Source: a bacterium | GTDB taxonomy: Bacteria > Patescibacteriota > Minisyncoccia > Phycocordibacterales > Phycocordibacteraceae | Direction of reading: 5' to 3' | Assembly (NCBI GenBank): GCA_021794425.1 | Contig: JAJYQV010000027.1 | Coordinates: 1 to 41,561 of the forward strand | Length of the DNA stretch: 41,561 bases | In this document: piece after piece, positions 34,672 to 41,561 of the stretch | Position numbering within the stretch: the first letter of the stretch is position 1 | How the letters are laid out: the number at the start of each line of letters is the position of its first letter | Notes under the pieces: generated by a model | Database searches by the model: none | Seen by the model: only the letters and a program-made list of their open reading frames with translations | What the model was told of the DNA's origin: nothing | Made by a program: the position numbers and the translations under genes

Positions 34672-37584
34672 ATGGCGACCACGATGGCATTTGAAGAAGC
34701 GTACGGGAAACTCAATGCGAAACAGAAAGAAGCGGTGGATACCATCTACGGCCCGGTTGTAGTCGTGGCCGGTCCCGGCACGGGGAAGACGCAGATGCTC
34801 GCGCTCCGCATCGGGAACATCCTCCAGAAATCGACCGGTACCAAGCCGGACGAGATTCTCGCGCTCACCTTCACGGAAAGCGCTGTGGCGACGCTGCGCA
34901 CGCGCCTCGCGTCTTTCATAGGCGGTGCCGCATACCGCGTGCGCATCCACACCTTCCACGGCTTCGCTCAGTCAATATTACAATTGCGCCCCGACCTCTT
35001 TCCGCGTATCGCGGAGGGCGCGCCGCTCGGCGAGGTGCGCGGCATCACGCTCATGGAAGAGCTGCTCGACGCAGGGTCGTACGCGAAGATACGCAGCCCG
35101 AAAAACCCGCACCGGAGCGCGCGCGCTCTGCTCAATTTCATGAGCAAGCTGAAGCAGGAGCACTACACGCCCGAGGAGTATCTCGCCGTGCTTACCAAAG
35201 AGTACGAGCTCATACTCGCCGACCCGGAGCGCGTCCATGAGGGCGGGCGATACGCGGGCCAGGAAAAAGGCGATTTCATTCGTCGCCGCGAACGGCTTGA
35301 GAAGCATATTGAGGTCGCGCATCTCTTTGCCGCCTATCAAGAAGCGCTTCAGCGCGAGTCGCTTTATGATTACGAGGATCTCATCAACGATGCGATTCGC
35401 GGACTTGAGAGCGATGAAGGTTTCCGCGCCCAAGTGGGGGAGCGCTCGCAGTTCGTGCTCGCCGACGAGCACCAGGACGCGAACCCGGCGCAGAACCGCT
35501 TGCTTGAGCTTGTGACCGATTTTGACGGCTCGCCCAACGTGTTCATCGTTGGCGACGAGAAGCAGGCGATTTACCGCTTCCAGGGCGCGTCGCTCGCGTC
35601 GTTCTTTTATTTCAAGGAAAAATACCCCGCTGCGAAACTCATCTCGCTCGACGAGAATTATCGCTCGACCGAGAAGATACTCGCCGCCGCGCACGACCTC
35701 ATCGCTCCCGCGCCGGTACCAGACCCCACTCTGCGCCCGCAGCTGCGCGCGGTGCGCGGCGCGGGCGGCATGGTCGAGGAGGCGGCGTGCGACACGCCGC
35801 GGCAGGAGCAGGAGACTATTTGCGCGCATATCGAGAAGCTGCACGAGTCAGGCGTATCGTACGAAGACATCGCAATCCTCACCAAAAAGAATGCCGACGT
35901 GCTCGCGCTTGCCGAGGCCCTGCGCCGCGCTGGTATCCCCGAAGATCACGCGAGCGCCGAGGCGAGCGCGCTTGGGCACCCTGCGGTCCTGCTCTTCATC
36001 TCGCTCGTGCGCGCGGCGGCTGATCTCTCGCAGGATGCGCAGCTTGCCCGCGCGCTCTTCCTGCCGGGGTTGCCCCTGCCGCTTGGGGAGCGTTTGCGGC
36101 TGCTCGTCCATCCGCGAGACGGGAGACCGCTTCTGCGCATGCTCAAGGAGTGCGATGCGCCCGAGATGCGGGCGTGGGCGAGGAAACTGGAGGCGCTCGC
36201 CGAAGAGATGCCCGCGACGCCGGTGGTTGCGTGGCTTGCGCGGCTTGCTCTTGAGAGCGGGTTTGTCGCCGGACTGCTCGCGCTTGGCGAAAGCGAAGAG
36301 GCATACGAAGCGTACGAAGGATTCATGGGGGAGGCGGCGCTCCTCGCGCGCGAAAACCCGGGTGCGACTGCGCGTGACCTCCTCGCTCGGCTAGACATCA
36401 TCGAGAAGCATGAGCTGCGGGTGAAGCGTGCGCGCACGCGGCACGCGGGCGTTCGCCTCATGACCGTGCACGGCGCAAAAGGGCTCGAATTCCCGTACGT
36501 TATCATCGCGCACGCGACCGACGAGAAGTGGCTGCGCGGGAGAACCGACGAGTTCTCGCTCCTTCTGGAAAAAGAAGACGACGAGCACGACGAGCGTCGC
36601 TTGCTCTACGTCGCGCTCACGCGCGCGCGAGACGGCGTGCTCATCACTCGCGCGGCCGTGACGGATGAGGATCGCGCGCAGACGCCGCTGCGGTTTCTCG
36701 CTGACATGGCGGAGCATGCGGCCGCAAGGGTTCCCGCAGCGGGAACCCTTGCGGCCGCGCCCTATGAGGCGCGCACCGTCCTGGACGCGAATTTCTTGAA
36801 AGAGCGTCTGCTTGCGCGCGGTTTTTCACCAACCGGTTTCAATAACTACATGCAGTCGCCGTGGCAGTATTATTTCCGCACGCTCCTGCAGCTCCCCGAT
36901 GCGCCGACCCTGCCGATGATGTTCGGCACGGCGATGCACGCAGGGCTCAAGGCCTATGCCGACAAGCTGCCGGGCGGCGACGCGACCATCGACGCAGCCG
37001 TTGCAGCATTTGTGGGCGAACTCTCGCGCCTGCCGCTCTCGCCGCTCGATCGACAAGAGCTCGCAAAGAAGGGCGAAGACGCACTCCGCGCGTACCTCGC
37101 GCAAGAAGCTTCCGGCATGACGCGCGCACACGAGTCAGAATTCTCAATCACCGTGCCGCTCAGCGTGCCGGGCCTGGGCGATATCCCGCTCACCGGCAAG
37201 CTCGATCGGCTCGACCTGCGCGACGACGGTACGGTCGCGGTCATCGACTACAAGACCGGCAAGGCGCGGAGTGACAACGACATCAAAGGCCTTACGAAAT
37301 CGAGCGACGGCGGCTACTACCGCCAGCTCGTGTTCTATAAATTGCTGCTCGACCGCGACGGGCGCTATGACATGCGCGAAGCGGCGCTCCATTTTGTGGA
37401 GCCCGACGAGAAAGGGAAGTGCGTCATCCGCACGTTCGCCATCACCTCTGCCGAAGTCGCGGCCCTCGAAGCCGAGCTTGTCGCAGCTGCGCAGAAAATC
37501 GCCGACGGCTCGGCGTTCGCAACCCCCTGCGACCCGGGCTCATGCGACTACTGCCCCCTCGTCGGATTTTTGCTCGCGCGATGA
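34672..37584 (+). CDS. UvrD-family helicase with C-terminal PD-(D/E)XK nuclease domain
   Basis: LNAKQKEAVDTIYGPVVVVAGPGTGKTQMLALRI, DEHQDANPAQNRLLEL, TVHGAKGLEFPYVIIAH, VAVIDYKTGKA, Cys-rich CDPGSCDYCPL. Confidence 0.92.
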   Translation: MATTMAFEEAYGKLNAKQKEAVDTIYGPVVVVAGPGTGKTQMLALRIGNILQKSTGTKPDEILALTFTESAVATLRTRLASFIGGAAYRVRIHTFHGFAQSILQLRPDLFPRIAEGAPLGEVRGITLMEELLDAGSYAKIRSPKNPHRSARALLNFMSKLKQEHYTPEEYLAVLTKEYELILADPERVHEGGRYAGQEKGDFIRRRERLEKHIEVAHLFAAYQEALQRESLYDYEDLINDAIRGLESDEGFRAQVGERSQFVLADEHQDANPAQNRLLELVTDFDGSPNVFIVGDEKQAIYRFQGASLASFFYFKEKYPAAKLISLDENYRSTEKILAAAHDLIAPAPVPDPTLRPQLRAVRGAGGMVEEAACDTPRQEQETICAHIEKLHESGVSYEDIAILTKKNADVLALAEALRRAGIPEDHASAEASALGHPAVLLFISLVRAAADLSQDAQLARALFLPGLPLPLGERLRLLVHPRDGRPLLRMLKECDAPEMRAWARKLEALAEEMPATPVVAWLARLALESGFVAGLLALGESEEAYEAYEGFMGEAALLARENPGATARDLLARLDIIEKHELRVKRARTRHAGVRLMTVHGAKGLEFPYVIIAHATDEKWLRGRTDEFSLLLEKEDDEHDERRLLYVALTRARDGVLITRAAVTDEDRAQTPLRFLADMAEHAAARVPAAGTLAAAPYEARTVLDANFLKERLLARGFSPTGFNNYMQSPWQYYFRTLLQLPDAPTLPMMFGTAMHAGLKAYADKLPGGDATIDAAVAAFVGELSRLPLSPLDRQELAKKGEDALRAYLAQEASGMTRAHESEFSITVPLSVPGLGDIPLTGKLDRLDLRDDGTVAVIDYKTGKARSDNDIKGLTKSSDGGYYRQLVFYKLLLDRDGRYDMREAALHFVEPDEKGKCVIRTFAITSAEVAALEAELVAAAQKIADGSAFATPCDPGSCDYCPLVGFLLAR
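36718..36758. repeat. 41-nt perfect palindrome inside the helicase-nuclease gene
   Basis: GCGGCCGCAAGGGTTCCCGC-A-GCGGGAACCCTTGCGGCCGC, 20-bp arms with single-base centre. Confidence 0.95.
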
Positions 37585-40172: not shown

Positions 40173-40200
40173 TTGACAAACAACATATAGTCTGTATTAT
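40173..40200 (+). promoter_or_regulatory. Sigma70-like promoter for the DGR target gene
   Basis: TTGACA (40173-40178), 16-nt spacer, TATTAT (40195-40200). Confidence 0.7.
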
Positions 40201-40231
40201 AGTGCTAGCTTAGTCTGCTCTTTGCATCAGC

Positions 40232-40284
40232 GTTCGCCACAGCAGAAAGGAGCTCACCCGGGGCCGCTTTCTGCTGTGGCGAAC
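40232..40284 (+). promoter_or_regulatory. Long 5'-leader hairpin of the DGR target gene
   Basis: GTTCGCCACAGCAGAAAG (40232-40249) / CTTTCTGCTGTGGCGAAC (40267-40284), 18-bp perfect stem, 17-nt loop. Confidence 0.85.
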
Positions 40285-40330
40285 CCTGAAGGGAAGCTTG
40301 AACAGCACAACCACCCAAGGAGAAAACGTC

Positions 40331-40948
40331 ATGACGACGAAAACCTATGACGGGCAAACAGCCCGTTTCATTGCCTCTGTTGCAACGTGCATGCCGGCGC
40401 TTTCGGGCGAAGTCATGCAAGGCTGGATTGACAACCCGCAGGCACTCAAGAAGTTCCTGAGAGGGCTCAGCCCGAGCAAAGAAAAACACGCGCCCGATGA
40501 CGTCATCCGCGTTGACCGCTCGATCCGTCCGGCATACCCGAAATGGGCGGACCCGGAGTGGATCAACGACCCGGGTTTCATCGCTCTCGAGCAGACCGGT
40601 CCCGCTGAGTATCCAATCGGCAGTCTGGAGCAATGGCTCCACGACGGTCAGAAGAACGGCGGATTGGAGCGAGGCCACGCAATCTACGAGCACTTGGAGA
40701 GCAATAACATGCTCGTAAGCTGTCTCGGCCTCACCGATCTCCTGGCCATCCAGAAGCTCGGTGTTGAGGTCTTCCGCCGGTATTTCGCCGACAAAGCGGT
40801 GTTCGGTTGGAAGTCCGTCGTCCGGCACCGTGATGGCGACCTGGACGTGCCGTGCCTCGTTGGGGACGTCGGCGAGGTCGTGTTGGACTGGCACTGGCTC
40901 GACTACGACTGGGATGGCGATAGTCCGGTGCTCCGCTTCGCAAGTTAG
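40331..40948 (+). CDS. DGR target (variable) protein
   Basis: AAGGAG upstream of ATG 40331; C-terminus encoded by the VR: RHRDGDLDVPCLVGDVGEVVLDWHWLDYDWDGDSPVLRFAS. Confidence 0.85.
   Translation: MTTKTYDGQTARFIASVATCMPALSGEVMQGWIDNPQALKKFLRGLSPSKEKHAPDDVIRVDRSIRPAYPKWADPEWINDPGFIALEQTGPAEYPIGSLEQWLHDGQKNGGLERGHAIYEHLESNNMLVSCLGLTDLLAIQKLGVEVFRRYFADKAVFGWKSVVRHRDGDLDVPCLVGDVGEVVLDWHWLDYDWDGDSPVLRFAS
40819..40943 (+). repeat. DGR variable repeat (VR)
   Basis: 125-nt gapless match to 41265-41389; 14 mismatches, 13 at TR adenines. Confidence 0.92.
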
Positions 40949-40949
40949 A

Positions 40950-40983
40950 TCTGGGTGCTCAGACGCTTTGCTCAGCACTCAGA
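40950..40983 (+). promoter_or_regulatory. Hairpin immediately 3' of the VR (possible DGR target-recognition cruciform)
   Basis: TCTGGGTGCT / AGCACTCAGA, 10-bp stem with one G.T, 6 nt after the end of VR identity. Confidence 0.65.
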
Positions 40984-40997
40984 CCCTCGGACCTTTC

Positions 40998-41026
40998 GCC
41001 CCGCGTGTCTTCACGCGGGGCTTTTG
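40998..41026 (+). terminator. Rho-independent terminator of the target gene
   Basis: GCCCCGCGTG-TCTT-CACGCGGGGC followed by TTTTGC. Confidence 0.85.
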
Positions 41027-41034
41027 CATGTAAA

Positions 41035-41561
41035 ATGGGAAGCGGGAGTAGGCGAGTACGAGGGAGATTACGGTTTCCTTCTGCCGAATCCAGTATCCAT
41101 GCGTCCAGAGTCTTGCAGGTTACGGCTTGCACGAGCGTGTCGCATGCAGAACCTTCGAAAAACGAAGACACTTGGTGCAAGGTGTCCTGGCATTATGATG
41201 CCGAATACGATTCAAGCCGGAGAGTACTCGATGGCTGGTGGCGTGGATGGCACTTTGCACATATCGTCCGGAACCGTGATGGCAACCTGAACGTGCCGTA
41301 CCTCGTTGAGAACGACGGCAAGGTCGTGTTGAACTGGAACTGGCTCGACAACGACTGGAATGGCGATAATCCGGCGCTCCGCTTCGCAACTCTCTTCGTC
41401 CCAAACCCTGCTAACGCGTGGTTTGGTTTTGTCGCGCAAGCTGACCGTACCAGCCGCCAAGTTGTCGTCCGGTGTCCTCAACCACCTCTGAGATTGCCGC
41501 GTACTTTTTTGTGTCAAGTGCGCGTGTTTCCCAAGCGACCATCAAAAGGACCCGGAGGGTA
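41035..41561 (+). other. Open frame without stop running off the window and containing the TR in the VR reading frame
   Basis: ATG at 41035; no in-frame stop seen to 41561 by manual translation; includes DGWWRGWHFAHIVRNRDGNLNVPYLVENDGKVVLNWNWLDNDWNGDNPALRFAT. May be non-coding TR context. Confidence 0.35.
41265..41389 (+). repeat. DGR template repeat (TR)
   Basis: Adenine-rich AAC/AAT codon positions relative to the VR; followed by hairpin CCAAACC(41401-41407)/GGTTTGG(41420-41426). Confidence 0.92.

Follow-up and report, generated by a model that had tools for sequence, protein, structure and literature searches.

A cell-encoded diversity-generating retroelement of a Patescibacterium with a conserved structured leader 5' of its template repeat

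The window analysed here (the whole 41,561-nt stretch of DNA, which forms the end of contig C43 in a 688-kb genome of 45 contigs) carries the variable repeat (VR) and the template repeat (TR) of a genuine, cell-encoded diversity-generating retroelement (DGR) of a Patescibacterium. The DGR itself is of a known kind, and Patescibacteria are among the richest carriers of such elements (PMC8144416). We consider it probable that in this cell-encoded system TR is part of its own short RNA, in which a structured 5' domain, as scaffold and/or RT stop, takes the place of the 3' spacer (Sp) of the phage prototype. As far as Rfam 15 and the literature examined show, the architecture of this leader RNA is a new variant, although an earlier description may exist in the literature on CPR DGRs.

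The target gene (positions 40331–40948, plus strand) is an open reading frame of 205 aa, with an ATG at 40331 that follows an AAGGAG motif. VR (40819–40943, plus strand) occupies its C-terminal end and stops 2 nt ahead of the stop codon (40946–40948), in agreement with the initial annotation, which had placed VR at the extreme 3' end of a gene. It aligns without gaps with TR (41265–41389, plus strand) over 125 positions with 14 mismatches, 13 of which fall on TR adenines (9 A>G, 2 A>C and 2 A>T), the single exception being C41375T (1 change in 96 non-adenine positions). The mismatch list given in the initial annotation was reproduced in full, with all 14 at the same coordinates on re-alignment; its hand count of about 29 adenines proved exact (29 in the 125 nt of TR), and its binomial chance estimate of ~6e-8 was recomputed as 6.2e-8, while the hypergeometric P-value for the same bias is 5.4e-9. 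Every substitution in VR changes the first or second base of a codon in the target ORF. The pair was also recovered by a repeat search (126 nt, 89% identical, spacing 446). The 14-nt 3' ends of VR and TR are identical (GCTCCGCTTCGCAA, at 40930–40943 in VR and 41376–41389 in TR) and are predicted to serve as IMH and IMH*, respectively. Six nucleotides past VR there is a stem-loop (40950–40983, plus strand) with a 10-bp stem (TCTGGGTGCT/AGCACTCAGA), and the corresponding region (40944–41000) folds with -17.3 kcal/mol; by analogy, this element could be the counterpart of the BPP-1 target hairpin, with the role described for the latter (PMC3240598). A search of the whole assembly with the TR DNA revealed no further VRs, the only matches being the VR of the window and a TR variant on contig C8.

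The initial annotation had assigned the pair to a DGR and proposed that the genes for a reverse transcriptase (RT) and Avd be looked for past the contig end; both are indeed present on contig C8, beside the second copy of TR. The last 635 bases of the window (40927–41561) align with the end of C8 (L002:5894–6529), with 100% identity over the last 147 bp (the avd flank) and ~91% in the middle. Because the two ends overlap and C8 is single-copy outside the overlap, the most plausible interpretation is a single locus represented by two strain haplotypes that were assembled together. The break of C8 inside VR would be compatible with variation of VR having interrupted the assembly. The local divergence between C43 and C8 is centred on TR, the leader and the hairpin. 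Joining the two contigs by synteny of the flanking genes (hisS, prmC) was attempted and abandoned: none of these is conserved in the relatives, where the DGR is found at differing sites.

In the window, avd is represented by its 3' end, antisense to TR and truncated by the contig end (ORF at 41411–41561, minus strand), a feature that the initial annotation had missed, while the whole gene lies on C8; its product matches NCBIfam DivGenRetAVD with E 1.1e-12 and PHROG Avd with 5.5e-13, scoring below the NCBIfam and Pfam curated cut-offs. The RT on C8, which adjoins the second TR copy, belongs to RVT_1 (E 1e-23) and possesses the motifs LPLGNLTSQ and YADD. The same RT occurs in 24 of the 59 related genomes, most of them with TR/VR pairs mismatched at A. 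The adenine-specific pair, the DGR-type RT and Avd together are the reason for the DGR assignment, which the RT-bearing relatives with their own A-specific pairs back further. An assembly artefact or a chance similarity might be suspected, as the pair is situated at a contig end and the overlapping ends of C8 and C43 are 91% identical in the middle; this explanation is practically negligible, given the adenine specificity (P 5e-9), the otherwise single-copy character of C8 and the fact that dozens of independent assemblies have this layout together with A-specific pairs, and the relatives already refute it.

The frame of the C8 RT contains a TAG (L002:5473–5475, minus strand) at the position of a Tyr that is invariant in 18 relatives, and one codon is missing beside it; judging from the sequence, this allele is probably inactive. 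A genetic code with TAG read as Tyr was used solely for aligning the RT and was otherwise rejected, since TAG ends the target gene. The RT is intact in most relatives. The nonsense codon and the adjacent missing codon, together with broken RTs in some relatives (G050, G053; L024, L025, L029), could be taken to mean that the element has recently decayed into a pseudo-element whose VR is a frozen remnant. We regard this as less likely than not, since the TAG-bearing RT resides on the same contig as TR variant 2 and is not tied to the VR/TR haplotype of the window, TR adenines are unchanged between the strains, and VR has only 1 non-adenine mismatch in 96 positions, so any loss of DGR activity must be recent. 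The VR of the window was written from the TR beside it: its non-adenine mismatches number 1 against this TR (variant 1) and 10 against variant 2 on C8. The two TR variants differ from each other at 10 sites, none of which touches any of the 29 adenines; 8 of the differences affect the third base of a codon and a single amino acid is altered, a pattern that would be expected from selection on a protein template.

The genuine DGR of the window shares its order of parts with its relatives: target/VR, TR, antisense avd and RT follow one another in 24 of 26 related loci, and avd is antisense between TR and RT in 78 of 80 loci, a set drawn nearly entirely from Patescibacteria (Kaiser-, Jorgensen-, Zambryski-, Yanofsky-, Uhr-, Doudna-, Levybacteria and others). 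In the DGRs from IMG/VR (RT identity of 41% or less), by contrast, avd was detected in 63 loci, and in every one of them it has the sense orientation and separates VR from TR; a conserved spacer, GCCAGAAG..CCnnnGGG..CAGTGC, follows TR in these DGRs. With BPP-1 (mtd/VR, avd, TR, Sp, brt) our locus has in common the A-specific transfer from TR to VR, the DGR-type RT and Avd, as well as the location of VR at the 3' end of the target gene, the hairpin just past VR and the position of TR downstream of VR. The two differ in three respects: avd of BPP-1 is in sense and 5' of TR (between VR and TR), whereas here it is antisense and 3' of TR, between TR and RT; BPP-1 has the Sp motif 3' of TR, whereas here there is a terminator-like hairpin and no Sp motif; and the place 5' of TR, taken by the end of avd in BPP-1, is held here by a conserved structured leader (PMC12875486). 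The CPR DGRs of RT clade 2 of Roux et al. 2021 (PMC8144416) are similar in host group, in being cell-encoded and in having targets without recognisable domains, a likeness drawn from their published description; we found no mention of template-RNA structure or avd orientation in that paper.

The leader comprises ~220 nt 5' of TR (window ~41051–41260) that are conserved across Patescibacterial loci and have a covarying structure; the initial annotation had overlooked this part, the most unusual one of the locus. It begins with two hairpins, A (41051–41085, plus strand, covarying helices 1–2 of alignment A4, apical ATTACGGT) and B (41098–41146, plus strand, helices 3–4 of the same alignment, apical GGTTACGGCT), which have the apical consensus GGYTAMGGYT in common. 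They are followed by a 3' domain (41167–41270, plus strand) that matches our covariance model R1 with 90.1 bits and E 8e-19, the window being part of the training set. In this domain a 12-bp helix P1 (41175–41186/41249–41260) encloses P2 (41190–41193/41198–41201) and P3 (41215–41218/41233–41236), all on the plus strand; P1 closes 4 nt ahead of TR, and the internal core AATAARATWCARCC is highly conserved. In a MAFFT alignment of 34 loci, made from sequence alone, 18 of the 20 pairs of P1–P3 exhibit two-sided changes and 98.1% of the cells are paired, with a covariation score of 0.768 versus 0.310 in shuffles and at most 0.221 when the alignment was slid; hairpins A and B (alignment A4) have two-sided changes in 19 of 30 pairs, and no shuffle reached the observed score for either leader alignment. 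The folding energy of the whole 385-nt RNA has a z-score of only -1.6, hence our claim of a structured leader is based on covariation and not on energy. A search of Rfam 15 found no match covering the leader in the window at E<=1, and in 12 loci no gathering matches other than two tRNAs.

The excess of G-U over A-C pairs (90:5 and 150:6 in the two leader alignments) shows that the leader acts as RNA in the sense of TR, and not as DNA or in the sense of avd. Its location just past a promoter-like -10 might suggest that it regulates how TR is transcribed, or that it is a homing element acting as DNA, in either case unrelated to reverse transcription; we deem this improbable, as the G-U asymmetry indicates pairing at the RNA level, the TR boundary marks the end of the domain in all loci, and even solo cassettes that lack avd and RT have retained it.

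Searches with R1 identified the 3' domain in 60 of 69 loci, all of them except the window outside the training set. Within the class, 63 of 191 genomes have a match, and within the phylum 51 of 290 do; 66 of the 85 copies in the class have an RT 129–698 nt (~0.5 kb) downstream on the same strand, an event with a chance of ~0.0007 per match. Eleven R1 matches have no detected RT: several of these correspond to contig ends or RT remnants, and three are solo VR-leader-TR cassettes (L224, L231 and L233, in G225:C16, G152:C6 and G142:C2, respectively) with no avd or RT within ~1.7 kb downstream. In an 80-nt test window the solo cassettes have 15–20 mismatches at A and 0 elsewhere, and they are presumably served in trans by an RT encoded at another site; no RT was found in genome G225, which harbours L224. 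Conversely, no R1 match lies upstream of 44 of the 103 near-full-length RTs of the class (e.g. G152:C4:230058, G083, G223), for which contig ends, losses through filtering or a third kind of RNA architecture may account. Canonical viral loci yielded no R1 match (best 16.9 bits, E 0.5), and a model of the canonical spacer, R2, which describes the Sp motif 3' of TR, recognised 33 of the 45 canonical loci that had been held out, whereas the 59 loci of the Patescibacterial type, the window among them, gave no match. R1 does match four viral-labelled contigs, all with the Patescibacterial layout; the IMG/VR contigs L143, L144, L146 and L153, with this layout and the leader RNA, are either phages of Patescibacteria or misfiled cellular contigs.

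Signals for a separate transcript flank the leader and TR. Of 66 loci, 38 have an extended -10 ~240 nt upstream of TR, versus 4.1 expected; the match in the window itself is weak. This site lies past the target gene's own intrinsic-terminator-like hairpin (40998–41021, plus strand, predicted from sequence). Directly 3' of TR there is a fold with a T-rich tail resembling a terminator (41401–41426, plus strand), which overlaps the last codons of avd; over 66 loci it has -14.2 versus -6.8 kcal/mol in shuffles, and it shows compensatory changes between C43 and C8. Because of the -10 upstream and the terminator-like hairpin downstream we infer that TR is part of its own RNA of ~380 nt.

In the mechanism that we propose, the RT and Avd encoded just past the contig end would copy TR by error-prone reverse transcription with adenine specificity and so rewrite the VR of the target, which lies 446 nt upstream. 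The template RNA would be built of two hairpins behind its promoter, the P1–P3 multi-stem domain, TR and the terminator-like hairpin, with avd convergent from the opposite side and RT lying beyond avd. BPP-1 relies on its 3' spacer for the recruitment of RT-Avd and the priming of cDNA, whose synthesis is stopped by the end of avd located 5' of TR (PMC12875486). Neither element is in place in the Patescibacterial layout, and P1 closes 4 nt ahead of TR; on the simplest interpretation, the 5' domain replaces the phage-type Sp as the element recognised by RT-Avd and/or serves as the cDNA stop. The TAG in the C8 RT, the RTs of the class without an upstream R1 match and the weak -10 of the window speak against this model. 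The transcript boundaries, the binding of RT-Avd, the cDNA stop and the priming site are all deduced from the nucleotide sequence and should be taken as predictions.

A narrower function would be that of a cDNA-termination element only, with the P1 domain halting RT when it reaches the 5' end of TR, a task that in BPP-1 falls to the avd 3' sequence, and the docking scaffold and primer located elsewhere, e.g. in the 3' hairpin or the antisense-avd stretch. This agrees with the 3' strand of P1 abutting TR, with RT running towards P1 and with the presence of the BPP-1 stop motif at the same place (PMC12875486), but three conserved structured elements over 220 nt and the core AATAARATWCARCC exceed the needs of a stop, and we consider such a restricted role rather unlikely. 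We give an even chance to the most far-reaching form of the scaffold-first model, in which the template RNA would constitute a new RNA family, RT-Avd would assemble on the ~220-nt 5' domain and prime or stop cDNA unlike in the phage prototype, and leader, TR and VR would make up a minimal unit able to move and to be served in trans. Retron msr-msd RNAs likewise have a structured scaffold first and a template second. The predicted RNA would resemble them in the order of parts only, the RT here being DGR-type.

The mechanistic DGR literature that we found concerns one phage system, in which an RNA spacer 3' of TR governs both priming and the choice of template. The Patescibacterial loci are devoid of that spacer motif, and their leader is a testable candidate for the element that selects and bounds the template. 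As a search model, R1 can also locate template repeats at loci that lack an RT, and a DGR of the leader type might become a second chassis for targeted mutagenesis in the laboratory.

The target gene is preceded by a sigma-70-like promoter (TTGACA-16-TATTAT, 40173–40200, plus strand), predicted from its consensus match of 11/12. Between this site and the start codon there is a 30-nt inverted repeat (window 40220–40296, 87% identity, 17-nt loop), possibly a regulatory hairpin in the 5' leader of the target. The target protein has no family match in Pfam, NCBIfam or PHROG and no match to the PDB by sequence; in other Patescibacteria it has homologs that are DGR targets. AlphaFold modelled it with a mean pLDDT of 86.6, and despite this value the model has no structural match in the PDB or BFVD at E<=0.001. 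According to the model, a strand, helices and further strands follow one another in the C-terminal half, an order that might correspond to a reduced C-type lectin. L111, a contig labelled Planctomycetota, harbours a DGR of the Patescibacterial type together with the full-length homolog nearest to the target (37%), a case of either misbinning or transfer. Elsewhere in the window, a perfect 20-bp inverted repeat with a 1-nt centre (36718–36758) is situated within a gene for a UvrD/PcrA-like helicase.
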